Shown one piece after another: positions 36,165-62,267 of a stretch of 64,000 nucleotides of DNA. The stretch lies in the NCBI RefSeq assembly GCF_030866785.1, contig NZ_CP133018.1:2914001-2978000 (forward strand). Direction: 5' to 3'. The stretch comes from Agromyces protaetiae. GTDB taxonomy: Bacteria > Actinomycetota > Actinomycetes > Actinomycetales > Microbacteriaceae. The position numbers and the translations under genes are program-made. Numbering within the stretch: the stretch's first letter is position 1; every line of letters begins with the position of its first letter. A model generated the notes under the pieces. It was given only the letters and a program-made list of their open reading frames with translations. It searched no databases and was not told where the DNA came from.

Positions 36165-36239
36165 TGCTCAGGAAGATCGCGCACCCAACCGGCGTGTCGG
36201 GGCGCGGCACGCCGCAGCCGCACAGATTCTTCCTGCACA
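36165..36239. repeat. 75-bp inverted-repeat element, copy A1
   Basis: Begins TGCTCAGGAA and ends TTCCTGCACA, the right end slightly decayed relative to other copies. Shares GGCACGCCG at element positions 42-50 with A2. One of six copies of identical length in the window. Confidence 0.8.
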
Positions 36240-36320
36240 GGAAGCGCGCCGTCACGCACACTCCGCGGCCCACTCCCGGCGCCCGCCGGGCCACTCCGTC
36301 CACCAACGCGACCGATTCCC

Positions 36321-36395
36321 TGCTCAGGAAGATCGCGCACCCGACCGGCGTGTCGGGGCCGGGCACGCCGCAGCCGCACAAATTCTTCCTGCAGT
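36321..36395. repeat. 75-bp inverted-repeat element, copy A2
   Basis: Begins TGCTCAGGAA and ends TTCCTGCAGT; about 90% identical to A1, which starts 156 bp upstream in the same orientation. Confidence 0.8.
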
Positions 36396-36447
36396 GCGAG
36401 ACCCGCCGCAGTCGCGGGGTCACGTGAGCTGCATCGCGCGCAGCGGA

Positions 36448-36488
36448 CACGAAGAAGGGGCGCCCGGAACGGGTGCCCCTTCGTCGTG
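36448..36488 (-). terminator. Terminator of the DsbA-like gene
   Basis: 18-bp stem with two mismatches (CACGAAGAAGGGGCGCCC against GGGTGCCCCTTCGTCGTG) and a 5-nt loop, 11 bp past the gene's stop. Confidence 0.75.
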
Positions 36489-36498
36489 TGCCGACCGG

Positions 36499-37428
36499 TT
36501 ACGGCGCGGGGGTCGGCGTCGGGGTCGGGGTCGAGTCGTTCGACTCGAGCGAGCTCTCGCTCGCGGCCTGCGTCACGAACGCCTGGAACTCGCTCGCGTC
36601 GGTGAGCGAGCCCGAGTAGGACTTGCCGTTCACGAGCACCGTCGGCGTGCCCCGCACGCTCTCGATCTCGGAGTTCGGGATGGGCCCGGCGAGCGCGCGC
36701 GCCGTGGAGTCCTGCACCCAGGACTTGAATCGGGTCTCGTCGATGCAGGCCTCAACCTCGCTGAGCGAGGACACCCCGACGTCGGACGCGAGCGCCTTGA
36801 GCTCCTGGTTCGACAAGCCGGTCGAGCCTTCGGCCGGCTGGTTCTCGAAGAGGATCGCGTTGAAGTCGAAGAACGACTCGGGCGACTGGTCGGCGACGCA
36901 CGCCGCGGCGTTCGCGGCCCGGAGCGAGTACTGCGTGCCGGCGGACTTGTTGGAGAGGATCGCGATGGGATGCACCTCGAGCGTGGCCGCCCCGGACTCG
37001 ACGAGCGTGCGGAGGGTCTCACCGTTGGTCGCTTCGAAATCGCCGCAGAAGGGGCAGAGGTAGTCGACGTAGGTGACGATGTTCGCGACATTGCCGCTGT
37101 CGTCCTGCTCGGTGGGAACGGGGTCTTCGCCCGGGTCGAGCGCGGGCGTCTCGACGGCGGTGATGGTGCCGTCGGCGCCGGTCAGCACGATGCCGTCGCT
37201 CGCCATGTTGGCCGGGCCCGGGCCGGCAGGCTTCACATTGTTGAAGATGAGCGCGCCGATCAGGGCCGCGACCGCGACGACCACGACGATGACCCCACCC
37301 TGAATCAGGACCTTCTTGCGCTTGTCCTTCTTCTTCTGCTGTTCGCGGAGGACCTTGGCCTTCTCCCTGGCCGCCTCTCTGCGATCGTTACGGGTGGGGC
37401 GTGGCTGACTGGATCCGCCGTTGCTCAT
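36499..37428 (-). CDS. Membrane-anchored DsbA-like thioredoxin-fold protein
   Basis: A 309-aa protein: a Lys/Arg-rich cytoplasmic N-terminus (about 1-38) with coiled-coil character, one membrane helix (about 39-62, GGVIVVVVAVAALIGALIF), then an extracytoplasmic thioredoxin-like domain of the DsbA/DSBA-oxidoreductase type. The active site is CPFC in VDYLCPFCGDF; the cis-Pro region is VRGTPTVLVNGK. It ends in a Thr/Pro repeat tail. Probably forms or reshuffles disulfides in exported proteins. GGAG precedes the ATG. A TACTAT box (complement of 37510-37515) is a possible -10. Confidence 0.9.
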   Translation of the reverse strand: MSNGGSSQPRPTRNDRREAAREKAKVLREQQKKKDKRKKVLIQGGVIVVVVAVAALIGALIFNNVKPAGPGPANMASDGIVLTGADGTITAVETPALDPGEDPVPTEQDDSGNVANIVTYVDYLCPFCGDFEATNGETLRTLVESGAATLEVHPIAILSNKSAGTQYSLRAANAAACVADQSPESFFDFNAILFENQPAEGSTGLSNQELKALASDVGVSSLSEVEACIDETRFKSWVQDSTARALAGPIPNSEIESVRGTPTVLVNGKSYSGSLTDASEFQAFVTQAASESSLESNDSTPTPTPTPAP

Positions 37429-37555
37429 CGATGGTCACTCCGGGACTGTGCTTTTCGGGGGCTCGCTGCTGTGTGGGCGCGCGGAAGTTCGCGTGTGAAC
37501 GCCCTAACGATAGTAGGTACGGTGTCTGGGAAACACCCAGGTGCACGCCGCATGC

Positions 37556-37561
37556 CATACT
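37556..37561 (+). promoter_or_regulatory. -10-like box CATACT before the MalK-type gene
   Basis: Hexamer 82 bp before the ATG in the divergent region shared with the DsbA-like gene. No clear -35. Confidence 0.3.
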
Positions 37562-37643
37562 GATGAGGCGTCGATGACGACGCGATCATCCATTCACTAC
37601 GGATCGTCCGGCACGTACCTGCCGGTGAAGGAGAAGCACAACC

Positions 37644-38744
<1,101 letters not shown>

Positions 38745-38762
38745 GCGCCGTCACCACACGAT

Positions 38763-38808
38763 CGGATGCCGGTCGGGCCTGCGGGCCCGGCCGGCATCCG
38801 TCGTTTTC
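38763..38808 (+). terminator. Terminator of the MalK-type gene
   Basis: 17-bp stem starting CGGATGCCGG with one G-U pair and a TGCG loop (38,763-38,800), followed by TCGTTTT, one of the few U-rich ends in the window. The stem again contains the GGATGCC/GGCATCC word. Confidence 0.8.
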
Positions 38809-38860
38809 GAGGGCCGCGGATGCCCCGCCCGCGCGCTCCCCTCCGCACTCGCGTCTTCCC

Positions 38861-38935
38861 TGCTCAGGAACACGCACACGACACGCCGTAACCACACCGC
38901 TGACACGCCGCACCCGGTCGTGGTCTTCCTGAGCA
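38861..38935. repeat. 75-bp inverted-repeat element, copy B1
   Basis: Perfect ends TGCTCAGGAA ... TTCCTGAGCA. Two direct GACACGCCG words at element positions 20-28 and 42-50, 22 bp apart. No gene seen in 38,809-39,184. Confidence 0.85.
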
Positions 38936-39035
38936 AGGAAACGGAAGGGGAACCGGCGGCCGAGGCATCCACCCGTCTCGCTTGCTTGACTCACTCGCTT
39001 GCCCGCACTCCCCCGGGCGCCTCGGCCCAGTTCCC

Positions 39036-39110
39036 AACGCAGGAACACGCGCGCGACACGCCGCAACCACACCGCTGACACGCCGCACCCGGACGTGATC
39101 TTCCTGAGCA
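39036..39110. repeat. 75-bp inverted-repeat element, copy B2
   Basis: About 87% identical to B1, 175 bp away in the same orientation; left end slightly changed (AACGCAGGAA), right end TTCCTGAGCA intact. The identity continues past the element (AAGGAAACGG...AGGGGAACCGGCG). Confidence 0.85.
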
Positions 39111-39184
39111 AGGAAACGGGAGGGGAACCGGCGACCGAAGGCGGCGAGGCCGCGCACTCCATGAATCCGGATACGCTGAACACG

Positions 39185-40498
39185 ATGAGCGGCTCACTCT
39201 CGATCACGTCGGCGATGGCCGACCCCGCACTGCTCGACCTGCCGTGGGACCTCCCCCTCGAGGCTTGGCCGAGCGACACGATCGCGGCGCTGCCGAAGGG
39301 CATCTCCCGGCACCTGGTGCGCTTCGCGCACCTCGGCGGGCATGTCGTCGCGATCAAGGAGACGACCGCCGAGATGGCGCGCGGCGAGTACGAGATGCTG
39401 CGCACGCTGCAGCGGCTCGAGATTCCTTGCGTCGATCCGGTCGCGGTGATCACGAACCGCACCGACGCCGAGGGCGATGAGCTGAAGCCTGTGCTCGTCA
39501 CGCGGCACCTTCGATTCTCGCTGCCGTATCGCGCCCTGTTCTCGCAGACGTTGCGCCCCGACACAGCAACCCGCCTCGTCGACGCGCTCGCGGTGCTCCT
39601 CGTGCGCCTGCACATCGTGGGCTTCTTCTGGGGCGACGTCTCGCTGTCGAACACGCTGTTCCGGCGTGACGCCGGCGCGTTCGCCGCGTATCTCGTCGAC
39701 GCGGAGACCGGCAAGCTCTACCAGGGCGGCCTTTCGAACGGGCAGCGCGAGAACGATCTCGAGATCGCGCGGGTGAACATCGCGGGCGAGTTGCTCGACC
39801 TCGAGGCCGGCGGCCGGGTGGCCGACGAGCTCGACCCGGTGCGGATCTCGAACGGCATCGTCGACGCCTATCGCAAGCTCTGGGCGGAGCTCACCGAGAC
39901 CGAGAGCTTCCCGGGCGCGGAACGCTGGCGCATCAACGAGCGCGTCCAGCGGCTCAACGAGCTCGGCTTCGACATCGAAGAGCTCGCGATCAAGACGGAT
40001 GCCTCGGGCACGACCGTGCGCATCCAGCCGAAGGTCGTGGACGCCGGCCACCATCAGCGACGGCTGTTGCGGCTCACCGGGCTCGACGCGGGCGAGAATC
40101 AGGCGCGGCGTCTGCTCAACGACCTCGATTCGTACCGTGCCACGTACGGCAAGGCCGATCTCGATGAGGAGATGGTCGCACACGAGTGGCTCATGCGCGT
40201 GTTCGAGCCCGTCGTGCGGGCGATTCCCATGGAGCTCCGCGGCAAGCTCGAACCCGCCGAGGTGTTCCACCAGCTGCTCGAGCATCGCTGGTTCATGGCG
40301 CAGAAGGAGGGCCGGGACATCCCGCTCGCCGAGGCCGTGACCAGCTACGTCAACGAGGTGCTTCGACACCGGCGCGACGAGGCGACCATGATCGACCCGC
40401 CGACCGGCGCGATCACGACCGCCCTGCCCGTGCTCGAGACGTCCGCGATCCCGGTCGTCGACCCCGACGACGAGGACGACTGGCGCGCCAAGGTCTGA
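39185..40498 (+). CDS. DUF4032 domain-containing protein, kinase-like
   Basis: A 437-aa protein conserved in actinobacteria. Start at 39185 chosen because TACGCT (39172-39177) ends 7 nt upstream, fitting a leaderless message; an in-frame ATG at 39161 is an alternative. The N-terminal half resembles the lipopolysaccharide/Kdo-kinase-like protein kinase fold (VVAIKETTAEMARGEYEML, and VGFFWGDVSLSNTLF with a catalytic-loop-like Asp and Asn). The C-terminal half is the DUF4032 domain. No substrate is established. Stand-alone gene with a very long hairpin after it. Confidence 0.87.
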   Translation: MSGSLSITSAMADPALLDLPWDLPLEAWPSDTIAALPKGISRHLVRFAHLGGHVVAIKETTAEMARGEYEMLRTLQRLEIPCVDPVAVITNRTDAEGDELKPVLVTRHLRFSLPYRALFSQTLRPDTATRLVDALAVLLVRLHIVGFFWGDVSLSNTLFRRDAGAFAAYLVDAETGKLYQGGLSNGQRENDLEIARVNIAGELLDLEAGGRVADELDPVRISNGIVDAYRKLWAELTETESFPGAERWRINERVQRLNELGFDIEELAIKTDASGTTVRIQPKVVDAGHHQRRLLRLTGLDAGENQARRLLNDLDSYRATYGKADLDEEMVAHEWLMRVFEPVVRAIPMELRGKLEPAEVFHQLLEHRWFMAQKEGRDIPLAEAVTSYVNEVLRHRRDEATMIDPPTGAITTALPVLETSAIPVVDPDDEDDWRAKV

Positions 40499-40550
40499 CT
40501 CCGGCGGCCTCGCGCCGCCCTTCCCTCCTCGCTCCCGCCTCGCTCCCGCG

Positions 40551-40608
40551 CGTGAGGACGGCATTCGGGGTTGGGAAGCGATTCCCAACCCCGAATGCCG
40601 TCCTCACG
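40551..40608. terminator. 27-bp perfect hairpin between convergent genes
   Basis: Two 27-nt arms, exactly complementary, with a GCGA loop. It sits between the DUF4032 gene end and the convergent PNPOx-like gene end, so it can act as a bidirectional terminator. No U-tract. The stem is unusually long. Confidence 0.85.
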
Positions 40609-40626
40609 TGATGTGGCGTCGAGGGG

Positions 40627-41109
40627 TCAGAATTCGACGACCCGGTTCTCGCCGATGTCGGGCTGTTCCTTGGTGAAGAACGCCTTGGTCGCCTTGGCGG
40701 CGGCGACGATGCCGCTTTCGGTCTTCGCCCAGTACTCGGCGCTCTCCGGCAGCACCTCGAGCACCACGATCTCGGGGTCTTCGCGCCCGCCCGGGAACCA
40801 CGCCTCCGCCGCCGGCCCCCAGAGCTCATCGATCGCGGCGGCGTTGTCCTCGACGAGGCGCGCCGTGCCGGCGAGTGAGAGGTAGCCCGCCTTCGACGCG
40901 AACGAGACGTTCACGCGCGGGTTCGTGCGGATCTCCTCGACCTTCGGGCTCGGGTCCTCGATCAGGAACCGGATGGTGCCGTCGAAGCGCTTCTGCAGCA
41001 CCGCCAGCGGGCGGGCGTGCAGGGAGCCGTCGCCCCCTTCGGTGGTCAGCATGGCCACGTCCGCAGAGGTGACGATGTCGGAAATACGGTCCAGCGCGTC
41101 GTTGTCCAT
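40627..41109 (-). CDS. Pyridoxamine 5'-phosphate oxidase-like (general stress 26 type) protein
   Basis: A 160-aa split-barrel flavin-binding protein. The ATG at 41109 follows TAGCGT by 7 nt (leaderless type). Features: ADVAMLTTEGGDGSLHARPL near the start, then TIRFLIEDPSPKVEEIRTNP and VNVSFASKAGYLSLAGTAR, as in the general-stress-protein-26 branch of the family. These bind FMN, F420 or similar; true PNPOx activity is unlikely from the short length. Ends near the 27-bp hairpin. Confidence 0.87.
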   Translation of the reverse strand: MDNDALDRISDIVTSADVAMLTTEGGDGSLHARPLAVLQKRFDGTIRFLIEDPSPKVEEIRTNPRVNVSFASKAGYLSLAGTARLVEDNAAAIDELWGPAAEAWFPGGREDPEIVVLEVLPESAEYWAKTESGIVAAAKATKAFFTKEQPDIGENRVVEF

Positions 41110-41161
41110 GGCTTCGACGCTACGCACCGCACGCCCCGTCGCCGACCCCTTGCCGTCCGCC

Positions 41162-41238
41162 CCGCCGAGTGTTAACGATCTGCGCCGGGCATGGCCGGAT
41201 TTCGACATCATTCGGCGCAGATCGTCATCACTCGGCGG
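41162..41238. terminator. Long interrupted hairpin between PNPOx-like gene and rlmB
   Basis: Arms CCGCCGAGTG + ACGATCTGCGCC pair perfectly with GGCGCAGATCGT + CACTCGGCGG, separated by a symmetric 3-nt internal loop; apical loop 27 nt. Lies downstream of rlmB. Next to it, 41,241-41,286 is an almost pure G/C tract with at least nine G-runs on the plus strand. Confidence 0.7.
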
Positions 41239-41286
41239 CCGGGGCGGGGGCGGGCGGGGCGGGGCGGGGCGGGCGAGGCGGGCGGG

Positions 41287-42309
41287 TCAGTGGGCGGCGC
41301 GGAGCTTGGCGATCTCGTAGAGGGTGACCGATGCGGCGATGCCGGCGTTGAGGGACTCGGTCGCGGAGCTGATCGGGATCGACACGACGGCGTCGCAGGT
41401 CTCGGTGACGAGGCGCGAGAGCCCCTTGCCCTCCGAACCCACCACGACGACGATCGGGCGGTCGGCGAACGACAGACCGGGCAGCATGGTGTCGCCGCCG
41501 CCGTCGAGACCGAGCACGAACACGCCGCGTTCCTTGAACGCCTTGAGCGTCTGGGTCAGGTTCGACGCCATCGCGACGGGCACGCGGGCCGCCGCGCCGG
41601 CCGAGGTCTTCCAGGCACCGGCGTTGACCCCGACGGACCGGCGCTGCGGCACGATGATGCCGTGCCCGCCGAAGGCGGCGGTCGACCGGATGATCGCACC
41701 CAGGTTGCGCGGGTCCGTGACGCCGTCGAGCGCGACGAACAACGGCGTCGCGTCATCGGCGAGCACCTCGTCGAGAAGCTCGATCGGGTGGGCGTACTCG
41801 TAGGGCGGCACCTTGAGGGCGAGGCCCTGGTGCACGCCGCCCTCGCCGGCGAGCCGGTCGAGCTCGGGCCGCATGACCTCGAGGATCGGGATGCCGCGGT
41901 TCGTGGCCATCTTCATCGCCTCGCGGACCCGGTCATCCATCTCGACGCGGGTCGCGACGTACAACGTGGTCGCGGGGATGCGCGTGCGCAACGCCTCGAC
42001 CACCGAGTTGCGACCCGTCACGATCTCCGACTCGTCGCCCGAGCGCGAGCGGTTCGCGGCACCGGATGCCCCGCGCGGGGCGCCGGAGCCGCCGCGCGAC
42101 GCGCCGGGACGCCCCTTGCCGCCGGACGCCTTGTACCGCTCTTCGGCCGCCTTGCGCTTGCCGGCGGGGTGCCAGGCCCGGTCCTCCGCCTTGGGCGTCG
42201 GCCCTTTGCCCTCGAGCGACTTGCGCCCGTGACCGCCCGTGCCGACCTGCTTGCCCTTGCTGCCCTTGCGCACTGCGCCGGGGCGGCCCTTGCCGCTGCT
42301 GCCCTTCAT
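41287..42309 (-). CDS. rlmB: 23S rRNA (guanosine-2'-O-)-methyltransferase RlmB-like
   Basis: A 340-aa TrmH-family (SPOUT) methyltransferase. Residues 1-95 are a Lys/Gly/Arg-rich disordered extension common in actinobacterial homologues. A substrate-binding domain ([20 protein letters not shown]) follows, then the SPOUT core with motif 1 [35 protein letters not shown] and [19 protein letters not shown]. RlmB methylates G2251 in the 23S P-loop; TrmH-type specificity is not fully certain from sequence. The start overlaps the cysS stop (ATGA), the usual cysS-rlmB pairing. Confidence 0.92.
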
Positions 42310-43718
42310 GTGGTGAGGCTCCAATGCGTTCCTGAAGACGAGTCTTCGATCGTGATGCCCGCGTCGGCGAGCTCGGCGCGGATCCGGTCCGCGGCCTGGT
42401 AGTCCTTCGCGGCGCGTGCGGCATGGCGGTCTTCGATCCGGCGCTCGACGAGCGCACCGAGAGCGGATGCCGCGGGGCCGGCGTCGCCCGTCGCCCAGTG
42501 CGGGTCGCGGGGGTCGATGCCGAGCACGCCGACCATCGCGACGACGTGCCCGTGCGCGGCCGCCGCGTCGTGCAGCTGTTCGGCGTCGAGCGCCTGGTTG
42601 CCCGCCCGCACGGTGTCGTGCAGCACGGCGAGTGCCTGCGGCACGCTGAGGTCGTCGTCCATGGCCGCGGCGAACGCGTCGGGCACGACGGGGCTGCCGA
42701 CGCCGGCGAACCGCGTGCCGGCCAGCCGCCGCTCGACCCGCGCGAGGAACGTGCGGATACGGTCGATCACGGCTTCGGCCTCGGTGACCGACGCGGGGCT
42801 GTAGTCCAGCGTCGACCGATAATGTGCGGCGCCGAGCAGATAACGGATGGCGAGCGGTGACCCGAGCTCGAGCAACTCACTCGCGTACACCGAGTTGCCG
42901 AGCGACTTCGACATCTTCTGCCCGCCGACGTTCACCAGACCGTTGTGCACCCAGTAGCGGGCGAACGCATCGCCCGCCGCGGTCGTCTGGGCGAGCTCGT
43001 TCTCGTGGTGCGGGAAGCGCAGATCGAGGCCACCGCCGTGCACGTCGAACTCGGGCCCGAGGTATCTCGCGGACATCGCGGAGCACTCGATGTGCCAGCC
43101 GGGCCGCCCGCCGCCCCAGGGCGAAGCCCAGGAGGCCGACTCGGGCTCGCCGGCCTTGGCGCCCTTCCAGAGCGCGAAGTCGCGCGGGTCGCGCTTCCCG
43201 CGCGGGTCCGCATCGGGTGCGGCCTCCATGTGGTCGCGGGATTGCCGTGTGAGTTCGCCGTAGGACGGCCAGCTCGCCGTGTCGAAGTACACATCGCCCG
43301 AGGCATCCGGCGCCGCGTAGGCGTGCCCGCGCTCGATGAGGCGCGCGATCAGCGCCTGCATCTGCGAAATGCTCGCGGTCGCGCGCGGCTCGTAGGTGGG
43401 CGGCAGGATGCCGAGCGCCCGGTAGCCGGCGGTGAACTCGAGCTCGACGCGGTACGCGAGCGCCCACCACTCCTCACCGGTGACGGCGGCGAGGATCTTG
43501 TCATCGATGTCGGTGACGTTCCGGATGAAGGTCACGTCGAACCCGCGATAGCTGAACCAGCGGCGCAGCAGATCGTAGACGAGCGCACTCCGGAGGTGGC
43601 CGATGTGCGGGCTCGACTGCACGGTCGGACCGCAGACGTACATGCCGACGTGCCCCTCTCGGAGGGGCACGAAGTCACGCAGGGCCTGCGCCTTGGTGTC
43701 GTACAGTCGGAGCGTCAC
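42306..43718 (-). CDS. cysS: Cysteinyl-tRNA synthetase
   Basis: A 470-aa class I synthetase. The zinc-binding YVCGPTV and GWHIECS segments, the HIGH-type motif ([12 protein letters not shown]), and KMSKSLGN are all present. The GTG start lies 6 nt after TAGGCT (leaderless type). The fully length-typical enzyme and its order with ispDF upstream and rlmB downstream match the conserved actinobacterial cluster. The mshC paralogue is excluded by length and the standard C-terminal domain. Confidence 0.95.
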
Positions 43719-43779
43719 CCGTCAAGCCTAGCGGCGCGGCGCGCGGCGCCGAGCGCGGCGGCGCACGGCGCCGAGCGCG

Positions 43780-44994
43780 TCAGACCGGGCCGACGACGGC
43801 CGTCGCGATCGCGGCGACGCCCTCGCCCCGGCCGGTGAACCCCAGCGCGTCGGTCGTGGTCGCCGACACGCTCACGGGCGCACCGAGCGCCGCACTCAGC
43901 ACGGACTCGGCTTCGGCGCGGCGCGGCGCGAGCTTGGGGCGGTTGCCGATGACCTGCACGCTCACGTTCCCGATGCGGTACCCGGCACGCTCGACGAGCT
44001 CGCGCGCCCGGCCGAGCAGCACGGTGCCGTGCGCGCCCGCGAGCGCCGGGTCATCGGTGCCGAAGATCGAGCCGAGGTCGCCGAGTCCGGCGGCCGCGAG
44101 CACCGCGTCGACGATCGCGTGACTCGCCGCATCGCCGTCGCTGTGGCCCGCGAGGCCACGACCGTCCGGCCATTCGAGCCCCGCGACCCACAGCGGTGTG
44201 CCGGGATCGTCGCTGAAGGCGTGCACATCCACACCCGTGCCGACGCGCGGCATCGGCGCGGGCGCGCCGGCGACCGGGTTCGCCGCCCGACCCTCGCGCG
44301 CGAGCCGATCGTGCACGAGCTGCTCCGCCCGGTGCAGGTCGGCGGGCACGGTGACCTTGAAGGCGCGCGCGTCGCCCGGGACCACGTCGACGGGGAGGCC
44401 GATGGATGCCACGAGCGCGGCGTCGTCGGTGAACTCGGCTCCGGCCGTGGCGTAGGCGCGGTCGAGCGCCTCGCGCGGGAAGCCCTGGGGAGTCTGGACG
44501 GCCGCGAGCGTGGACCGGTCGACCGTGTCGATCACGCGATGCGACGGGTCGACGCGCTTGATCGTGTCGACCACGTCGAGCGCCGGGATGACGCCGTGTC
44601 CGCGCGAGCGCACCGCCTGCACCACCTCGTCGAAGACGAGTGACGGGGTGAGCGGCCGGGCCGCGTCGTGCACGAGCACGGTGTCGACGAGACGCGGCAG
44701 CAGCGCGAGGCCGCGGGCCACCGAGTCCTGGCGGCTCACGCCGCCCTCGACCACGTCGAGCGGTGCGCCGGCCGCCTCGGCGACGGGGCCGATCATGGCG
44801 CGCGCCGATTCGACCCGCCCCTCAGGGACGACCAGCACGACGTGCGGCGTCTCGTGCATGCCGAGCGCGGCATCCACCGCCAGCTCGAGCATGGTGCGAC
44901 CGGCCAACGGCACGAACGCCTTCGGCTCGGAGTGGGCCAGTCGTGAGCCGCTCCCGGCGGCGACGATGATCACGGCGACGGTCGATGCACTCAC
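43780..44994 (-). CDS. ispDF: Bifunctional IspD/IspF isoprenoid enzyme
   Basis: A 404-aa fusion in the MEP pathway. Residues 1-230 are the IspD cytidylyltransferase ([35 protein letters not shown]). Residues about 248-404 are the IspF cyclodiphosphate synthase ([14 protein letters not shown] with the metal-binding Asp and His, [20 protein letters not shown]). Fusion is common in actinobacteria and proteobacteria. GTG start 6 nt after TAGGCT. Located upstream of cysS. Confidence 0.95.
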
Positions 44995-45042
44995 AGTGCG
45001 AGCCTATGCCCGATCGCCTGCGGGGTCTCGATGTGATCGCCT

Positions 45043-45090
45043 ACGCTCGGCCCTCGACCAGCGGCCGTGCCGCCGGTCGAGGAACCGAGC
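45043..45090 (-). terminator. Terminator of carD
   Basis: A two-part hairpin: an inner 14-bp stem (CCTCGACCAGCGGC with GCCGCCGGTCGAGG, one G-U pair, 3-nt loop) and an outer stem ACGCTCGG/CCGAGCGT. Ends 13 bp after the carD stop. Confidence 0.65.
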
Positions 45091-53300: not shown

Positions 53301-53606
53301 CTAGGCCAGCGGCGCGAGCAGCAGCGCTGCCAGGCCCACGATGACGGCCGAACCGCCGACCGACGTCCCGGCGCGCGAGACGAACCCTTCCGGGCGCCGT
53401 GTGACGAGTTGGGCGACGAGCGTGGTGAGCACCGCCAGACCGAACACGACGGCGAGCGCGCCGTACCGGCCCAGGGCCGAGTCATCCGTCATCCAGGCAT
53501 CGCCGGCGACCGCGCCGGCGACCACCGCGATCGACCCTGCGAGCGCGACCAGCCAGGCCGCGCCGATCGCGACGCCCGACGCCGTGGACGAACTCGTCTC
53601 CATCAC
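53301..53606 (-). CDS. Small membrane protein, unknown function
   Basis: A 101-aa protein with three hydrophobic segments (about 12-34, 47-66 and 79-100) and a short loop [11 protein letters not shown]. The second Met (53603) may be the real start. No family recognised. Same strand as the small peptide and nitrobindin-like/ygfZ genes, 23 bp apart. Confidence 0.7.
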
Positions 53607-53723
53607 TCCCCTGTTCCGCGCCGGGTGTCCGGCGTCCGCCTCGGGCGAGGCATCCGTTCACCGTCCCGTAGTATTGACCGCACCTTACTACTGGAGGCGT
53701 GTGACTGCCGAGGAGGTGCTCCC

Positions 53724-54410
53724 GTGGCGCAGCTGTTGATCCTGTCGCCGGCGGCCGACGAAGACGTCCTCCCCGCTCTTTCGCTCTTGACCCATCGGAC
53801 GCGTGTGATTCCTGCGTCGCCCGATCAGCTCGTCCGCGCGCCCGAGTCGGACCTCGTGTTCCTCGACGCGCGTACGAACCTCGCGGGCGCGAAGGCGCTC
53901 GCCCAGATCCTCCGCACGACCGGGCTGTCAGCACCGCTCGTGCTCATCGTGACCGAGGGCGGCCTGACGGCCGTGACGCCCGACTGGGGCGTCGACGACG
54001 TCGTGCTCGAGCAGGCGGGCCCTGCCGAGATCGACGCGCGGATCCGGCTCGCGATCGGGCGTGCGCAGTCGACGCAGCCCTCGGAGCGCATTCAGACGTC
54101 CGGCGTGGTGATCGACGAGGCGAGCTACTCGGCGAAGGTGCGCGGCCGGCCGCTCGACCTCACCTACAAGGAGTTCGAGCTGCTGCGCTTCCTCGCGGCG
54201 CATCCGTCCCGAGTGTTCACGCGCGAGCAGCTGCTCAGCGAGGTGTGGGGGTACGACTACTTCGGCGGCACCCGCACCGTCGACGTGCACGTGCGGCGGC
54301 TGCGCGCGAAGCTCGGCGATCTCGACAGTCTCATCGGCACCGTCCGCAACGTCGGCTACCGGTTCAACGTGCACGACGAGGACGAGCCGTCGCAGGTCGC
54401 CTCCCGTTGA
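53724..54410 (+). CDS. glnR: GlnR-type orphan response regulator
   Basis: A 228-aa OmpR-family regulator starting at GTG with AGGAGG 8 nt upstream. The atypical receiver half ([60 protein letters not shown]) is the actinobacterial GlnR pattern. The winged helix has [19 protein letters not shown] and [16 protein letters not shown]. GlnR controls nitrogen assimilation without a dedicated kinase. In other actinobacteria it also lies near phosphate-transport genes, as here. Confidence 0.9.
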
Positions 54411-54455
54411 CCTTCCGGACACCTCCTCGTCGCGGCCCGGTGGCATGATGAGGAG

Positions 54456-56633
54456 ATGACCGACACCCTCGACGACGATCGCACCTCGAGCGACTTCGAC
54501 GATGATTTCGAGCCGTTCGACGTCGAGGGCGCGCCTGAGCTCCCGACCGAGCGATACCTCGACCGCGAACTCAGCTGGCTCGCGTTCAATCAGCGGGTGC
54601 TCGAGCTCGCCGAGGATCCGCGGCTGCCGGTGCTCGAGCGGGCGAACTTCCTCGCCATCTTCGCGTCGAACCTCGACGAGTTCTTCATGGTCCGGGTCGC
54701 CGGGCTGAAACGTCGGATCGCGACCGGGCTCGCGGTGCCGACGAACGTCGGCCGCGCCCCGATCGATGTGCTCGAAGACATCTCCAGGGCCGCCCACGAG
54801 TTGCAGGAGCGGCACGCGGCGGCGTACCAGCGACTCGTGAAGCCGGCGCTCGCCGAGTCAGGCATCCACGTCGTGGCCTGGGCCGAGCTCGACGAGGCCG
54901 AGCAAGAGCACCTGCGCGGCTACTTCTCGCAGCAGATCTTCCCGGTGCTCATGCCGCTCGCCGTCGATCCCGCGCATCCGTTCCCCTACATCTCGGGGCT
55001 CTCGCTCAACCTGTCCGTTCGCGTCCGCAACAGCCGGACCGGGCGGCAGGAGTTCGCGCGCGTGAAGGTGCCGCAGATGCTGCCGCGCTTCGTGCAGGTC
55101 AGCGCGACCGAGAAGGTCGACGACGTCAGGTACATCGCGCTCGAGGACCTCATCGCGAACCACCTCGGCGACCTGTTCCCCGGCATGGAGATCCTCGACC
55201 ATCACGTGTTCCGCGTCACCCGCAACGAAGACGTCGAGATCGAGGAGGACGAGACCGAGAACCTGATCAAGGCCCTCGAGAAGGAGCTGCTGCGGCGACG
55301 CTTCGGGCCGCCGATCAGGCTCGAGGTCACCGACGACATGGACGACGTGACGCTCGGTCTGCTGGTGCGCGAACTCGACATCTCCGAGCGGGAGGTGTAC
55401 CGGCTGCCGTCGCCGCTCGACCTCGGTGGGCTGTTCGATCTCGCCCGCATCGACCGGCCCGATCTGCACTTCCCGACCGCCGTGCCGACGACGAACGCAC
55501 AACTGCAGCCGTCCGAGCCGAACCGGCAGGCCGACATCTTCGAGGCCGTCTCGCGCAAGGACGTGCTGCTGCACCACCCGTACGAGTCGTTCGCGACGAG
55601 CGTGCAGGCCTTCCTCGAACAGGCCGCCGCCGACCCCAACGTGCTCGCCATCAAGCAGACCCTCTACCGCACGTCGGGCGACAGCCCGATCGTGGAGGCC
55701 CTGATCGACGCGGCCGAGTCCGGCAAGCAGGTGCTCGCCCTCGTCGAGATCAAGGCCCGCTTCGACGAGGCCGCGAACATCACCTGGGCGCGCAAGCTCG
55801 AGAAGGCCGGCGTGCACGTCGTGTACGGCCTCGTGGGTCTGAAGACGCACTGCAAGCTCGCGCTCGTGATCCGGCAGGAGCAGGGTCGGCTGCGGCACTA
55901 CAGCCACATCGGCACGGGCAACTACAACCCGAAGACCAGCCGCATCTACGAGGACCTCGGCCTGCTCACGGCCGACGACCAGGTCGGCAAAGACCTCACC
56001 CGGCTCTTCAACGAGCTGTCCGGCTACGCGATCGAGAAGAAGTTCAAGCGGCTCCTCGTCGCGCCGCTGCACCTTCGGAAGGGGCTGCTCAAGCTCATCA
56101 CCACCGAGACCCGGAACGCGGAGGCCGGTCGCCCGGCCTCCATCCGCATCAAGGTCAACTCGATGGTCGACGAGGCCATCATCGACGCGCTGTATCGGGC
56201 CTCGAACGCGGGTGTGCGGGTCGACGTCTGGGTGCGCGGCATCTGCAGTCTCCGGCCCGGGATCCCGGGACTGAGCGAGCACATCAGGGTGCGATCGATC
56301 CTCGGCCGCTACCTCGAGCACTCTCGCATCTTCTCCTTCGGCAACGACGGCGACCCGCAGGTGTTCATCGGCTCGGCAGACATGATGCACCGCAACCTCG
56401 ACCGTCGCGTCGAAGCGCTCATCCGCCTCACCGACCCAGACCACCTGGCCGAGATCGACGCGCTGTTCGACGAGGCGCTCGACCCGCACACGAGCTCGTG
56501 GCATCTCGGCGAGGACGGCACCTGGGAACGCCACTCGACCGATGAGGACGGCCGCCCGCTCGTCGACCTGCAGGACCGCATGATGCAGCTGACCGCGCAG
56601 CGGGCCAGGCCACGCCCCGGGAAGCGTCGATGA
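54456..56633 (+). CDS. ppk: Polyphosphate kinase
   Basis: A 725-aa PPK1. N-terminal domain [20 protein letters not shown] and [20 protein letters not shown]; the phospholipase-D-like catalytic half contains the autophosphorylated His in [18 protein letters not shown] and the C-terminal [16 protein letters not shown]. Makes polyphosphate from ATP reversibly. GAGGAG lies just before the ATG. Stop overlaps the Nudix gene (ATGA), the usual ppk-mutT pairing in actinobacteria. Confidence 0.96.
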
Positions 56634-57577
56634 CGCGCGCGGTCGAGACGGCGGTCTATGCGGCCGGCGCGGTGTGCTGGCGCGTGATCGACGGAAAGAT
56701 CCACATCCTCGTGGTGCACCGCACGGTCTACGGCGACGTCACCATCCCGAAGGGCAAGGTGGACCCGGGTGAATCGCTGCCGCAGACCGCGGTGCGCGAG
56801 ATCGCCGAGGAGACCGGGTTGCAGGTCGCCCTCGGCGTGCCGCTCGGTGAGTCGCGCTACGCCATGCCGAGCGGCCGCGAGAAGGTCGTGCACTATTGGG
56901 CGGCCGAGGTCAGCGACCGCGCGGTGCAGCGATCGACCTTCCGGCCGAACGCCGAGATCGCGGCACTCGAGTGGCTCACGATCAAGCAGGCGCGCGGCTA
57001 TCTCAGCTACGAGCCGGATGTCGCGATCCTCGACGCATTCGCGCGTCTGGTCGACCAGGGCGTCACGAACACGTTCGCGCTGCTCGTCGTGCGGCATGGC
57101 AAGGCCGTGGACAAGGGTGGCTGGCAGGGCGAGGACGCGGCGCGTCCGCTCACCGCTCGCGGCGTCGCGCAATCCGTCGCGCTGTCCAACGTGCTCGGGG
57201 CGTGGGCCCCGAAGCGCATCGTCTCGAGTCCCGCGGTGCGGTGCGTCTCGACGGTCGCACCGCTGTCGGCCGCGCTCGACATCCCGGTCAAGCGCGACGA
57301 GGGCATCAGCCAGCAGGCGTGGGAAGACGGCGAGAGCGAGGTCCGCCGGGTGGTCGGCAAGCGTGTGCGCGTCGGGAAGACCGCGGTGCTCTGCAGCCAC
57401 AATCCCGTGCTGCCCGCGATCATCCGGGAGATCGGCCTCGCGACCGGTACGCCGCTCGGCGGCTACGTCGAGGACGCCGCCTCGCTCGAGACCGGCGCGT
57501 ACAGCGTCGTGCATCTGTCGGCGAGCAACCCCAGCTCGGGCATCGTCGCGATCGAGACGCATCCGTCGCTCGCGTAG
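56630..57577 (+). CDS. Nudix hydrolase fused to a SixA-like phosphatase (MutT1 type)
   Basis: A 315-aa two-domain protein. Residues 1-140: Nudix domain with the full box [20 protein letters not shown]. Residues 150-315: histidine phosphatase domain with [23 protein letters not shown] and [11 protein letters not shown]. Matches mycobacterial MutT1, which removes 8-oxo-dGTP and diadenosine polyphosphates. Coupled to ppk, suggesting a shared nucleotide/polyphosphate role. Confidence 0.92.
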
Positions 57578-57613
57578 TCGGGGTCGAGCCGCAGGGCGCA
57601 CTGGCAAGCAGTC

Positions 57614-57635
57614 GTTCACTTGCCGTTCACCATCG
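57614..57635 (+). promoter_or_regulatory. PHO box before pstS
   Basis: GTTCACTTGCC followed directly by GTTCACC: two direct repeats at 11-bp spacing, the actinomycete PHO-box layout. TAAGGC at 57649-57654 lies 17 bp after the second repeat and could be the -10, so the box would overlap the -35 region. RegX3 is the probable activator. Confidence 0.65.
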
Positions 57636-57730
57636 CGGGGGAAGCTCGTAAGGCGAGCTGCATAGCGTCGCAGGCGGGCCGAGCACCGGCCCGAACCCCC
57701 TGCAATCAGACCCCTGAAGGGACACTTCAC

Positions 57731-58828
57731 GTGAACGTGAACGTCAAGCGTTTCGGCGCCCCCGCCGTCATCGCCACCGCCGCTGTGCTCGCGCTCAGCT
57801 CCTGCGCCTCGAACGAAGGCAACGCCGCTCCCGAAGAGTCGGCCTCGTCGCTCTCCGGCAACCTCGTCGGCGCCGGCGCGTCGTCGCAGGACGCCGCCCA
57901 GCAGGCCTGGATCGCGGGCTTCCAGACCGCGAACCCCGAGGTCACCATCGACTACGACCCCTCGGGCTCCGGCGCGGGTCGCGAGACGTTCCTCGAGGGC
58001 GCGAGCGCCTTCGCCGGTTCGGACCGTGCGTTCAACGACGAGGAGATCGCCGAGGGCGGCTTCGCCGCCTGCGCCCCCGACAGCGACCTCGTCGAGCTGC
58101 CGCTGTACATCTCGCCGATCGCGGTCATCTTCAACCTCGAGGGCATCGACTCGCTCAACCTCGACGCGGCGACCCTCGCCGGCATCTTCAACGGCACCAT
58201 CACCACCTGGAACGACCCGGCGATCGCCGGCCAGAACGAGGGTGTCGAGCTGCCCGCCACGGCGATCACGCCGGTGCACCGCTCGGACGACTCGGGCACC
58301 ACCGAGAACTTCACCGAGTACCTCAACGCCGTCGCGCCCGACGTGTGGACGTGGGAGGCCGACGGTGTGTGGCCGCTCGAGTCCGGTGAGGCCGCTCAGG
58401 GCACCTCCGGCCTCGTCGACGCCGTGACCAACGGCACCGGCACCATCGGCTACGCCGACGCCTCGCGCGCCGGCGACCTCGGCACCGTCGCGGTGCAGGT
58501 CGGCAGCGAGTACGTCGAGTACTCGCCCGAGGCGGCCGCCGCGATCGTCGACGCGTCGCCGCTCGTGGAGGGCCGCGCCTCGACCGACCTCGCCATCGAG
58601 CTCGACCGCACCACCGAAGAGGCCGGCGTCTACCCGATCGTGCTGATCAGCTACCTCATCGGCTGCGCCGAGTACGCCGAGCCCGACAACGTCGAGCTGG
58701 TCAAGTCGTACTTCTCGTACATCGCGAGCGAAGAGGGTCAGCAGGCCGGTGCCGAGGCCGCCGGTTCCGCGCCGATCTCGGAGCAGCTGCGCGAGCAGGT
58801 CACCGCGGCGATCGACGCCATCAAGTAA
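57731..58828 (+). CDS. pstS: Phosphate-binding lipoprotein PstS
   Basis: A 365-aa protein from a GTG with GAAGGGA upstream (a second GTG is two codons on). Signal with lipobox LSSC. The mature protein has the PstS phosphate-site segments GAGASSQ, DPSGSGAGRETFLEG, FAGSDRAF and HRSDDSGTTENFTEYL. It captures phosphate outside the cell for PstCAB. First gene of pstSCAB; a hairpin follows. Confidence 0.95.
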   Translation: MNVNVKRFGAPAVIATAAVLALSSCASNEGNAAPEESASSLSGNLVGAGASSQDAAQQAWIAGFQTANPEVTIDYDPSGSGAGRETFLEGASAFAGSDRAFNDEEIAEGGFAACAPDSDLVELPLYISPIAVIFNLEGIDSLNLDAATLAGIFNGTITTWNDPAIAGQNEGVELPATAITPVHRSDDSGTTENFTEYLNAVAPDVWTWEADGVWPLESGEAAQGTSGLVDAVTNGTGTIGYADASRAGDLGTVAVQVGSEYVEYSPEAAAAIVDASPLVEGRASTDLAIELDRTTEEAGVYPIVLISYLIGCAEYAEPDNVELVKSYFSYIASEEGQQAGAEAAGSAPISEQLREQVTAAIDAIK

Positions 58829-58839
58829 ACATCCCGGTT

Positions 58840-58884
58840 GTGCCCGGCCCTGAGATCTGCGTTGATGGATCCTGGGCCGGGCAC
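58840..58884 (+). terminator. Hairpin between pstS and pstC
   Basis: 11-bp perfect stem (GTGCCCGGCCC / GGGCCGGGCAC) with a 23-nt loop, 11 bp after the pstS stop. Probably a partial terminator or mRNA stabiliser that keeps PstS in excess over the permease genes. Confidence 0.6.
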
Positions 58885-58928
58885 GGCCAGCCTCTCTCTT
58901 CCCCCGACAGAACCGAGGACCCGGCCAG

Positions 58929-59867
58929 ATGAGCACCGCCCCCGCACCGATCAAGGCGAAGATCCGCCTCGGTGACCTCGTCTTCTCGCGATCGGCGCTC
59001 TTCGCCGGGTCGATGATCCTGATCACCCTGGCGGCCGTCGCGATCTTCCTCATCGTGCAGTCGATCCCGGCGCTGTTCGCCACGAACGAGGACGCCTCGA
59101 TCCTGCCGACGAACTTCTGGCAGTACGTCGGTCCGCTCGTCTTCGGCACCATCTGGGCGGCCGCGCTCGCGCTGCTCATGGCCGTCCCGGTCTCGATCGG
59201 CATCGCGCTCTTCATCTCGCACTACGCACCGCGGCGACTCGCCTCGGTGCTCGGCTACATCGTCGACCTGCTCGCCGCGGTGCCCTCGGTCGTGTTCGGC
59301 CTCTGGGGCATCGGCGTGCTGGCCCCCGCGATCGTGCCCGTCTACGAGTGGTTGAACACCAACATGGGCTGGATCCCGCTCTTCGGCGGCACGGTCTCGG
59401 CCACCGGCCGTACCATCCTCACCGCGGCCGTCGTGCTCGCCGTCATGGTGCTGCCGATCATGACCGCCATCTGCCGCGAGGTCTTCCTGCAGACGCCCGT
59501 GCTGCACGAAGAGGCGGCACTGGCCCTCGGCGCCACCCGATGGGAGATGATCCGCATGTCGGTCCTGCCGTTCGGCCGGCCCGGCATCATCTCCGCCTCG
59601 GTGCTCGGTCTCGGCCGTGCGCTCGGTGAGACCATGGCGGTGGCCATGGTGCTCTCGGCCTCGCAGGTCATCAGCTTCGAGCTGCTCACCTCGGTCAATC
59701 CGACGACGATCGCGGCGAACATCGCCCTCAGCTTCCCCGAGGCTTACGGTCTCAACGTCAACGTGCTGATCGCCACGGGCCTCATCCTGTTCATCGTCAC
59801 CTTCGCGGTCAACGCGGTCGCGCGCTGGATCGTGTCGCGCCGCAAGGAATTCTCGGGAGCCAACTGA
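58929..59867 (+). CDS. pstC: Phosphate ABC transporter permease PstC
   Basis: A 312-aa membrane protein with six membrane helices, the first at about 25-47. The EAA-type loop is EEAALALGATRWEMIRMSVL. LAAVPSVVFGLWGIGVLAP is typical for PstC. Its stop overlaps the pstA start (TGATG). Confidence 0.95.
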   Translation: MSTAPAPIKAKIRLGDLVFSRSALFAGSMILITLAAVAIFLIVQSIPALFATNEDASILPTNFWQYVGPLVFGTIWAAALALLMAVPVSIGIALFISHYAPRRLASVLGYIVDLLAAVPSVVFGLWGIGVLAPAIVPVYEWLNTNMGWIPLFGGTVSATGRTILTAAVVLAVMVLPIMTAICREVFLQTPVLHEEAALALGATRWEMIRMSVLPFGRPGIISASVLGLGRALGETMAVAMVLSASQVISFELLTSVNPTTIAANIALSFPEAYGLNVNVLIATGLILFIVTFAVNAVARWIVSRRKEFSGAN

Positions 59868-60967
59868 TGACCGTCACGTCCACGCCCCCTGAGACGACGC
59901 CGCGCGTCAGCACCCCCATCGCCAATTCGCTCACCGCCGGCCGGCTGCCGAACGGCGCACCGTGGATGCTGCTCGGCGCCGCGCTCGCCGTGTCCGGTGT
60001 GCTCTTCGGGGTCATCGCGCTCGGCGCAGGCGAGTACAACTGGGTCGGCGCGATCGTGGTCGGCGCGATCCTGTACATCCCCGCCATCTGGCTGTTCTCC
60101 TCGATCGTCGAGGGCCGCCGACGGGCGACCGACCGCCTCGTGACCGCGCTCGTCACCGGTGCGTTCCTGCTCGCGATGATCCCGCTGATCTCGCTGATCT
60201 ACACCGTGTTGAGCCTGGGCCTCGCCCGCTTCGACGCCGAGTTCTTCACCTCGTCGATGCGCAACGTGACCGGTGAGGGCGGCGGCGCGCTGCACGCCAT
60301 CGTCGGCACCCTGATCATGACCGGCACCGCGGCGATCATCTCGATCCCGATCGGCCTCATGACCTCGATCTACCTGGTCGAGTACGGGCGCGGCAAGATC
60401 GCGCGCGGCATCACCTTCCTCGTCGACGTCATGACGGGCATCCCCTCGATCGTCGCCGGCCTGTTCGCCTACGCGCTGTTCGCGATCTTCTTCGGGCCGG
60501 GCGTGCGCCTCGGCATCGCGGGCGCCGTCGCGCTCGCGGTGCTCATGATCCCCGTCGTCGTCCGCTCCAGCGAGGAGATGCTGCGCCTCGTGCCGAACGA
60601 GCTGCGCGAGGCATCCCTCGCCCTGGGCGTGCCGAAGTGGCTCACGATCGTGAAGGTCGTGCTGCCCACCTCGATCGCCGGCATCACGACCGGCATCATG
60701 CTCGCCATCGCCCGGGTCATCGGCGAGACGGCGCCACTGCTCATCGCGGCCGGCTTCACGCAGAGCATGAACTACAACGAGTTCGACGGCCGCATGCAGT
60801 CGCTGCCGGTCTTCGTGTACACGCAGTACGCCAACCAGGGCAACCCGCCCGAGGCGTACCTCGACCGGGCGTGGGCCGCCGCGCTCACCCTCATCCTCAT
60901 CGTCATGGCGCTGAACCTGCTCGCCCGGCTCATCGCCCGCCTCTTCGCGCCGAAGTTCGGCCGCTGA
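59867..60967 (+). CDS. pstA: Phosphate ABC transporter permease PstA
   Basis: A 366-aa permease, longer than average because of a roughly 90-residue N-terminal part with two extra hydrophobic segments. The core shows FLVDVMTGIPSIVAGLFAYA and the EAA loop REASLALGVPKWLTIVKVVL. Coupled to pstC and followed at 22 bp by pstB. Confidence 0.95.
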   Translation: MTVTSTPPETTPRVSTPIANSLTAGRLPNGAPWMLLGAALAVSGVLFGVIALGAGEYNWVGAIVVGAILYIPAIWLFSSIVEGRRRATDRLVTALVTGAFLLAMIPLISLIYTVLSLGLARFDAEFFTSSMRNVTGEGGGALHAIVGTLIMTGTAAIISIPIGLMTSIYLVEYGRGKIARGITFLVDVMTGIPSIVAGLFAYALFAIFFGPGVRLGIAGAVALAVLMIPVVVRSSEEMLRLVPNELREASLALGVPKWLTIVKVVLPTSIAGITTGIMLAIARVIGETAPLLIAAGFTQSMNYNEFDGRMQSLPVFVYTQYANQGNPPEAYLDRAWAAALTLILIVMALNLLARLIARLFAPKFGR

Positions 60968-60989
60968 TCCCCCCAGTTAGGAAACGAAC

Positions 60990-61769
60990 GTGTCCAAGCG
61001 CATCGAGGTTCGCGACCTCAACGTCTACTACTCGAAGTTCCTCGCGGTCGAGGGCGTCTCGCTCGAGATCGAGCCCCGCAGCGTGACCGCGTTCATCGGC
61101 CCGTCGGGCTGCGGCAAGTCGACCTTCCTCCGGACCCTGAACCGCATGCACGAGGTCATCCCGGGGGCGCGCGTCGAGGGCGAGGTGCTGATCGACGGCA
61201 ACAACCTGTACGACCCCGACGTCGACCCGGTGCTCGTGCGCCGTCAGGTCGGCATGGTCTTCCAGCGGCCGAACCCGTTCCCGACGATGTCGATCAAGGA
61301 GAACGTGCTCGCGGGCGTGAAGCTCAACAACCGGCGCATGTCGAAGTCCGACGGCGACGCGCTCGTCGAGAAGTCGCTGCGCGGCGCGAACCTCTGGAAC
61401 GAGGTCAAGGACCGGCTCGACCGCCCGGGCTCGGGCCTGTCGGGCGGCCAGCAGCAGCGCCTCTGCATCGCGCGGGCGATCGCGGTCTCCCCCGAGGTCA
61501 TCCTCATGGACGAGCCGTGCTCGGCCCTCGACCCGATCTCGACCCTCGCGATCGAGGACCTCATCGAGGAGCTCAAGCAGGAGTACACGATCGTGATCGT
61601 GACCCACAACATGCAGCAGGCCTCGCGCGTGTCCGACAAGACCGCGTTCTTCAACATCGCGGGCACCGGCAAGCCGGGCAAGCTCATCGAGTACGACCAG
61701 ACCACGACGATCTTCTCCAACCCGACCGTCAAGGCCACCGAGGACTACGTGTCGGGTCGCTTCGGCTGA
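60990..61769 (+). CDS. pstB: Phosphate ABC transporter ATPase PstB
   Basis: A 259-aa ATPase of typical length, GTG start. Walker [17 protein letters not shown]-loop [14 protein letters not shown], signature [17 protein letters not shown], Walker [17 protein letters not shown], switch His in [16 protein letters not shown]. Energises phosphate import. Confidence 0.96.
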
Positions 61770-61810
61770 GTCGCGCCTGATCGGCGCTGCGGCGACGGAT
61801 GCCTCGGCCT

Positions 61811-61828
61811 CGCGGTCCTCGGACCGCG
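61811..61828 (+). terminator. Small hairpin after pstB
   Basis: CGCGGTCC-TC-GGACCGCG, an 8-bp stem with a 2-nt loop, 41 bp after the pstB stop. Weak candidate terminator. The 580-bp stretch 61,770-62,349 holds no gene, only repeats described separately. Confidence 0.35.
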
Positions 61829-61923
61829 GGCCGCACGCGTCCCCCGCAGCCCGGCGACCCGCCGACCCGGCCACCCGGCCACCCGGCCACCCGCCCACCC
61901 GCCGAACCCGTCGGCCGACTCCT

Positions 61924-61998
61924 TGCGCAGGAAGATTCGCGCGACGCGCCGGAGACACGGCGCCGACACGCCGCCATCACGGCCACGGTTCCTGAGCA
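61924..61998. repeat. 75-bp inverted-repeat element, copy C1
   Basis: Ends TGCGCAGGAA ... TTCCTGAGCA; internal GACGCGCCG and GACACGCCG 22 bp apart. Followed by a GAGCGAGCAGG...GGATGCCTCGG flank that is repeated after C2. Confidence 0.85.
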
Positions 61999-62109
61999 AG
62001 AGCGGGAGAGGGCGAGCGAGCAGGTGGGCGAGCGGATGCCTCGGCCCCACCGTCTGCACGACCGCGGCGCCGTTCGGCTACCGCGTTGCCCCAGCCCGCC
62101 CGCCGACCC

Positions 62110-62177
62110 GGCCACCCGCCGACCCCGGCCACCCGCCGACCCCGGCCACCCGCCGACCCCGGCCATCCGGCGACCCC
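62110..62177 (+). repeat. Four 17-bp tandem repeats (GGCCACCCGCCGACCCC)
   Basis: Three perfect units and one degenerate unit between C1 and C2. A related 8-bp GGCCACCC array lies at about 61,872-61,900 before C1. Confidence 0.9.
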
Positions 62178-62192
62178 GGCCCACCGACTCCT

Positions 62193-62267
62193 TGCTCAGG
62201 AAGATTCGCGCGACGCGCCGGAGACGCAGCGCAGACACGCCGGCATTGCGGCCGAGATTCCTGAGCA
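62193..62267. repeat. 75-bp inverted-repeat element, copy C2
   Basis: Perfect ends TGCTCAGGAA ... TTCCTGAGCA. About 80% identical to C1, 269 bp away, same orientation. Its flank continues to within about 40 bp of the PabC-like gene's stop. Confidence 0.85.

Follow-up and report, generated by a model that had tools for sequence, protein, structure and literature searches.

The described systems closest in layout to the one reported here are the REP doublets forming hairpins (REPINs; REP, repetitive extragenic palindrome) and their REP-associated tyrosine transposases (RAYTs). Two papers describe these as short palindromes repeated in the intergenic spaces of convergent or co-directional genes, with a single-copy partner gene that is flanked by its own repeat type and with clusters in which the flanking DNA is reiterated (PMC3116915, PMC3733652). 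Here, we describe a 75-bp palindromic element of Agromyces protaetiae, found in six copies in a 64-kb stretch of DNA (the window; positions 2914001-2978000 of the single-contig 4.18-Mb genome, labeled G000, contig C1), together with a candidate partner gene lying about 14 kb to the left of the window, whose product joins an AbiEi-like part to a nuclease of the Vsr/EDxHD-homing-endonuclease fold. We put the probability at roughly 0.6 that element and gene form a REPIN-RAYT-like two-component system built on an unrelated nuclease, with the full mechanism set out below; that the two are tied to each other at all is, from sequence comparison, very probable.

The Agromyces system resembles REPINs and RAYTs, as these papers describe them, in its dispersed intergenic palindromes, its convergent and co-directional sites, its single-copy flanked partner gene, and its clusters with reiterated flanks. 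It differs in that the partner is an AbiEi-like/Vsr-fold nuclease rather than a Y1 tyrosine transposase, and in that the element lacks inner-arm compensation, shares no interior between loci, and carries its internal boxes in any orientation. REPIN-RAYT is the nearest system in layout and fails on the enzyme and the stem. Unlike EDxHD/Vsr-like homing endonucleases such as I-Bth0305I, the Agromyces gene is fused to an AbiEi-like part, free-standing, and flanked by a presumed target that has dispersed copies. Miniature inverted-repeat transposable elements (MITEs) also have terminal inverted repeats, a dispersed distribution, and lineage-specific gain; in Agromyces, in contrast, no target-site duplication was found, interiors are common only within clusters, and whole palindromes rather than single terminal repeats stand beside the gene. 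In full-text searches of open-licence papers, no listed title or abstract opening connected DUF559, AbiEi, or Vsr-like genes with such repeats, and a report elsewhere is possible. Papers that do use such words deal with an EDxHD-type intein gene (PMC9403480), transposase-DUF559 repeated segments that are recombination hotspots in another bacterium (PMC12308824), and AbiEi genes of the ordinary kind (PMC10354927). An earlier note on this DNA had held the element to be undescribed, which agrees with these searches of the open-licence literature, a part of the whole.

A nuclease gene flanked by the element

The link between gene and element was first seen as elements beside the same gene in two genomes, G004 and G011. 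In A. protaetiae, the gene, an open reading frame at 2898787-2899710 of contig C1, carries two elements on each side, four in all. Residues 1-206 of its product follow the AbiEi fold, and the catalytic part matches a Vsr-like catalytic fold of the EDxHD-homing-endonuclease type. When acidic and histidine residues were scored by conservation across 54 sequences, rather than by one-to-one mapping on the active site of I-Bth0305I, the catalytic-type residues D240, H257, and D266 were invariant, while E250 and D252 were retained in at least 90%. An ortholog (E value of 1e-60) was present in 16 of 60 Agromyces genomes, always in single copy, and homologs occurred in 40 of 398 genomes, and in 17 of 85 genera, searched within the family, which we take to be Microbacteriaceae. 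A plasmid search for the protein gave no match at an E value of 1e-8. The gene has the AbiEi fold in common with AbiE type IV toxin-antitoxin systems; it differs from them in the fused nuclease and in that no AbiEii was found by Pfam among the chosen neighbors in three genomes (G000, G004, and G011). The families returned for those neighbors were cold-shock, MFS, saccharopine dehydrogenase, lactone oxidase, GH43, MR_MLE, and uricase. At L122 and L129 (by Pfam) and L163-L166 (by eye), the gene lies near uricase and/or saccharopine-dehydrogenase genes, and in G000 it lies near cold-shock and MFS genes. Because the uricase and saccharopine-dehydrogenase neighbors recur in several Agromyces, the gene appears to be mostly vertically inherited.

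All 16 Agromyces orthologs were accompanied by elements, 14 of them on both sides and two (G465 and G027) on one side. To score flanks without reference to this element, a strict test demanded equal-length palindromes in both flanks with the same 12-base arms, the minimum score being 30 of 36. In the near flanks, 23 of 46 loci passed, compared with 0 of 46 far flanks and 0 of 690 shuffled flanks. Passing loci comprised 9 of 16 in Agromyces, 8 of 22 in other genera, and 6 of 8 full-length paralogs, the last being those of 23 paralog hits that matched both protein parts, a choice made after an earlier scored test. The passing paralogs (L167, L168, L170, L175, L177, and L179) have palindromes of their own, 57-91 bp long and with other interiors. 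The test is strict enough that L206 and L207 fail even with flanking elements 0.81 and 0.99 identical; L243, at a contig end, gave no pass. By eye, most loci of other genera contain a GACACGCCG-type box; the interiors are of other kinds in several paralogs and in L210, L212, and L216. A looser arm criterion produced chance passes in 12 of 23 paralogs, and scored tests controlled by shuffles and far flanks took its place. The view that paralogs are unflanked, from the absence of this particular element at all 23, was rejected once 6 of them passed with their own palindromes. The view that flanking elements are always direct was not upheld, the arrangement being clear at L204-L207, inverted at L167 and L168, and ambiguous elsewhere.

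The number of elements was then compared with the presence of the gene, using a multi-species model (R2) built from 56 chosen elements of 11 genomes, whose counts favor genomes like those. Gene-bearing Agromyces had 6-87 R2 rows; at least six were present in 16 of 16, versus 6 of 44 gene-less genomes (Fisher P value, 5e-10), and at least ten in 13 of 16 versus 3 of 44 (P value, 5e-8), the latter being the fairer threshold, since rows include both strands and gene-flanking copies, so that six is partly built in, to the detriment of our reading. With the R2 source genomes removed, the held-out comparison at six rows gave 9 of 9 versus 3 of 40 (P value, 1e-7). Orthologs always, and homologs and paralogs in many cases, are flanked by palindromes of their own, and the number of elements varies with the presence of the gene; the simplest reading is therefore that the element is the site of the enzyme.

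Anatomy of the element

The ends of the element in G000 are inverted arms, TTCCTTGCTCAGGAA when complete. Two GACACGCCG boxes lie inside, centered at positions 27 and 49, in agreement with the earlier observation that the inner words are often 22 bp apart. Either box may take either orientation, appearing as GACACGCCG to the left of its center or as CGGCGTGTC to the right, and C-S-G stood at the box centers in 36 of 36 aligned copies, taken from the 46 exact-end copies and selected for perfect arms. Counted once per cluster, the boxes were inward in 18, outward in 14, direct in 9 + 7, and undecided in 1. The pairable arrangements (inward plus outward) were mildly favored (32 of 48 clusters; P value, 0.03); the direct boxes of the other 16 clusters rule out box-to-box pairing. 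Not one of 51 deviations at arm positions 1-10 was met by a compensatory change, which argues that what is maintained is a geometry of the double strand and not a full stem.

These properties bear on the proposal that the element is a classical REPIN mobilized by a RAYT, or else acts as a hairpin RNA or a terminator. The size and palindromic ends do resemble those of REPINs, the mild preference for pairable boxes is in line with pairing, and some double changes in the outer arm are complementary. Nevertheless, we regard this proposal as barely credible, given the uncompensated inner arms, the direct boxes, the absence of any Rfam family at the element sites at gathering score, and the Y1 (RAYT) transposase family PF01797, which had no match in G000 and was positive in 5 of 14 control genomes. 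Identity with RAYT/REPIN was rejected on the lack of a Y1 transposase and of inner-arm compensation, and a hairpin or structured RNA as the main constraint on the Rfam null, the direct boxes, and the uncompensated inner arms. The earlier reading of the element as REPIN-like thus holds for the dispersed, short, mostly intergenic palindromes and the single flanked partner gene, but not for the transposase, the stem, the box orientation, or the fold of the partner. The GTAG or CGTC tag of REPINs was absent from the G000 arms and their flanks; in G019 and G033, the TGTAGGAA arms do contain GTAG. We also considered four sites in an evenly spaced 22-bp ladder and dropped the idea, as the arms run outward as TTCCT-N5-AGGAA, centered 24 bp from the boxes.

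Genome-wide distribution and clustering

A census combining an exact-end pattern, a sequence model, and BLAST hits gave at least 78 elements in G000, so that the genome-wide profile search suggested in the earlier note did extend the family beyond six copies. At least 77 of these, in 49 clusters, are 75 bp long and one is 74 bp long; the totals are lower bounds, as weak copies may be missing. The fixed length stood up in the exact-end pattern, where all 46 genome copies measured 75 bp with 65-85 bp permitted (reversed-pattern control, 0), and failed only at the 74-bp copy (3444634-3444707), which was found by the sequence model and falls outside the fixed-spacing rule. The clusters consist of 27 single elements, 18 pairs, 2 triples, and 2 quadruples, with members 142-306 bp apart. 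Clusters of two to four are common (22 of 49) but not the rule; the claim that copies are always paired is correct inside the window and does not extend to the genome. Orientation was the same in 35 of 36 within-cluster comparisons, the one exception resting on a 2-base margin the other way. Among 28 adjacent pairs, 16 share the element only, 10 have the spacer duplicated too, and 2 are in between.

Within clusters, the median identity was 70/75, compared with a median of 47/75 and a maximum of 61/75 between clusters. Spacer identity between clusters was 0.38, near the random level (0.30 when shuffled), and the divergence between pairs given in the earlier note, up to roughly 40-50%, was judged too low. 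Near-random spacers beside conserved arms and boxes point either to selection on each copy or to renewal of arms and boxes without copying of the middle; arm-directed repair after nicking would renew them in this way.

A family of MITE-like inverted-repeat elements moved by an unrelated transposase, with the nuclease gene as a passenger or a common landing place, would account for the inverted ends, the lineage-specific gain, and the likeness of neighboring copies amid unrelated flanks. Against this, distant copies have arms and boxes in common but not interiors. Furthermore, in the search for target-site duplications, no offset or length was prominent (best z, 2.3; 128 tried), although old insertions could hide one. 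A chance landing place would also not give the orthologs, and part of the other-genus homologs and paralogs, a two-sided palindrome of their own. The transposase search covered Y1_Tnp only, and we consider this explanation quite unlikely.

Most of the elements are intergenic and situated past the 3' ends of genes. By simple gene calls, 16 clusters were between convergent genes, 20 between co-directional genes, and 2 between divergent genes; 11 further clusters overlap a predicted open reading frame and were left unclassified. These positions are relevant to the possibility that the elements are operators, the AbiEi-like protein being a transcription or chromosome regulator of its own flanks and of sites across the genome, with the nuclease fold secondary. 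The AbiEi-like fold of residues 1-206, the near-fixed geometry, and the conservation of arms and boxes among near-random spacers, as for selected binding sites, would all suit an operator. However, divergent-gene sites are rare (2 of 38), elements stand on both sides of the gene rather than on the promoter side alone, site positions differ between species, and the catalytic-type residues are conserved in 54 homologs. We therefore think it unlikely that the elements are operators, and the conserved residues lead us to favor cutting or nicking over regulation alone.

Arm drift, gain, and loss among genomes

A model (R1) from 36 of the 46 exact G000 copies matched 35 of 60 genomes, its own included, at an E value of 0.01. 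These comprised 30 of the 37 genomes in the genus and 5 of the 23 outside it, the latter with a single weak row apiece. A rule with the core AGGAA...TTCCT and the same box positions is obeyed by 41 elements from ten genomes of the genus, with variants in G011 (AGGAM core) and in one G009 copy that is a base off at the right end; L126 has an R1 match but no element by the rule. An exact pattern scan of named genomes, which detects perfect inward-type copies only, returned 5 stretches, in three Agromyces species only. The outer arm, in most cases still inverted, varies among genomes: CGGATC in G004, TGC in G015, CGGG in G035 and G014, TGT in G019, and GATTC or CGTTC in G011. Arms read in the gene flanks and in dispersed copies agree within G000, G004, G011, G015, G032, and G035, and loosely in G033.

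The gap between msiK and the DUF4032 gene measures 47-143 bp, a terminator and a start, in 11 of 11 relatives examined (of 59) and 413 bp in G000. The DNA holding the third and fourth window elements (about 38810 to 39155, between the msiK terminator and the DUF4032 gene start) is accordingly a lineage-specific gain. G019 and G033 carry elements in the same intergenic gap, between flanks 95% and 92% identical; these elements differ in their arms, and the DNA around them is unrelated. G035 and G014 (97-98%) have one element in common.

E. coli bacterial interspersed mosaic elements are the model for a host structural site bound by gyrase or a nucleoid protein. An analogous host-beneficial site, only placed by the nuclease, would fit the positions beyond 3' ends, the same-orientation arrays, and the uneven chromosomal spread. 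It is nevertheless very unlikely in our view, since the arms differ between species, R2 gave no row in 27 of 60 Agromyces at an E value of 0.001, and the tie to one gene is left unexplained. Along G000 contig C1, only 4 clusters were found at 1.49-2.85 Mb and none was found at 3.63-4.18 Mb.

The six elements of the window

The six elements lie where the earlier note had placed them, in three same-orientation pairs. Element 1 (36165-36239; 75 bp) has an intact left arm (36165-36174), a right arm with 2 changes (TTCCTGCACA), and inward boxes CGGCGTGTC (36190-36198) and GGCACGCCG (36206-36214). Element 2 (36321-36395), 156 bp away in the same orientation and identical to element 1 at 69/75 positions, has 4 changes in its right arm and boxes at 36346-36354 and 36362-36370. 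Element 3 (38861-38935) has perfect arms and direct GACACGCCG boxes at 38880-38888 and 38902-38910; element 4 (39036-39110), 175 bp from it and 67/75 identical, has 3 changes in the left arm and boxes at 39055-39063 and 39077-39085. Element 5 (61924-61998) has 1 arm change and direct boxes at 61943-61951 (GACGCGCCG) and 61965-61973. Element 6 (62193-62267) follows at 269 bp, with 65/75 identity to element 5, perfect arms, and boxes at 62212-62220 and 62234-62242. The arm type is thus shared by all six, as had been claimed, but perfect TGCTCAGGAA...TTCCTGAGCA ends occur only in those at 38861 and 62193, the other four having 1-4 arm mismatches.

With up to one mismatch, TTCCTGAGCA occurs 12 times in the window versus 1.3 expected. 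A rule-based scan for arms, boxes, and spacing recovered 6 elements from the window and none from any of 20 first-order Markov shuffles. Shifting the boxes reduced the count to 0-4, but it stayed at 6 when the right end was shifted by 1, and that control is therefore uninformative on total length. An Rfam scan of the window at gathering score returned msiK alone (RF01747, 63.8 bits, at 37581-37639, upstream of the msiK ABC-transporter ATPase gene) and no named family at the element sites.

Several further features were observed nearby. A single perfect TTCCTGAGCA arm at 6371-6380, with no partner at element spacing, may be a decayed half element. A 17-bp tandem array of CCGAGCCATCCCCTCAC type, with about 8 units, adjoins element 1 (36017-36152), and GC-rich short tandem runs of CCCGGCCA-type units lie just ahead of elements 5 and 6 (61861-61908 and 62083-62160). 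Elements 1 and 2 seemingly sit at a synteny break (36000-36500), the genes on either side matching different places among the matches listed.

Discussion

We propose that the elements are dispersed sites of a selfish, or domesticated, two-component system. Its enzyme would be encoded by a single chromosomal gene in each genome, with the same element on its flanks and with the AbiEi-like DNA-binding part fused to the nuclease part. A dimer of the nuclease may bind the entire 65-75 bp palindrome; the AbiEi-like part would recognize the two inner boxes, and the nuclease part would lie near the AGGA of the arms. A nick or cut there would elicit repair, through which elements are copied, at first locally, and the arms stay alike within a genome. 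Binding of the element by the protein, its cutting, and the copying or homogenizing driven by cutting are inferred.

A number of observations weigh against this proposal. Elements can exist without a close ortholog (G009 and G019), and the 6 gene-less Agromyces with at least six rows are G014 (15), G454 (6), G460 (9), G466 (6), G019 (22), and G009 (20). The gene-element statistics ignore shared descent. The flanking elements of G033 are degenerate, and those of G465, of G027, and on one side of G457 are weak; the strict flank test was failed by 23 of 46 loci and, among all paralog hits, passed by 6 of 23, three of which (L167, L168, and L179) are interrupted by a stop within the matched stretch. 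The G000 protein scores under the curated cut-offs of Pfam. Since no two distant clusters exceed 61/75 identity, no recent long-range copying is visible. No target-site duplication stood out. In the outer arm, where the arm fades (positions -4 to 0), 20 of 43 double deviations were complementary, including 7 of 9 at position 0 in copies that are not independent. Spacing is looser in G019, where a gapped search gave 63-64 bp rather than 65 at 7 of 11 sites. Finally, 6 genomes of one other genus have only 0-2 exact arm patterns each, mostly at the gene, making wide dispersal so far an Agromyces feature.

AbiEi-DUF559-type genes recur as paralogs in these genomes; in Pfam, DUF559 is a protein of unknown function and MTES_1575 only a restriction-endonuclease-like domain. 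We tentatively suggest, with somewhat more doubt than conviction, that AbiEi-DUF559/MTES_1575 family genes of Microbacteriaceae, possibly also of other Actinobacteria, form a nuclease class in which each member keeps its own palindromic element. The arms would then be rewritten genome-wide in concert with drift in specificity, with the inner box constant from genus to genus within one ortholog group. Such nucleases would have homing-endonuclease targets that they spread or repair and do not destroy, as a nuclease-driven counterpart of REPIN-RAYT without single-strand hairpins.

If this is true, the flanks of the gene would be a testable substrate for the DUF559 family, and the few systems with a single-copy gene that maintains a dispersed repeat population would gain a second, unrelated class of enzyme. 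Long DNA targets with their naturally matching Vsr-type nucleases would then be available from many species. It would also raise the question of how a homing-type nuclease coexists with dozens of presumed target copies in its own chromosome.

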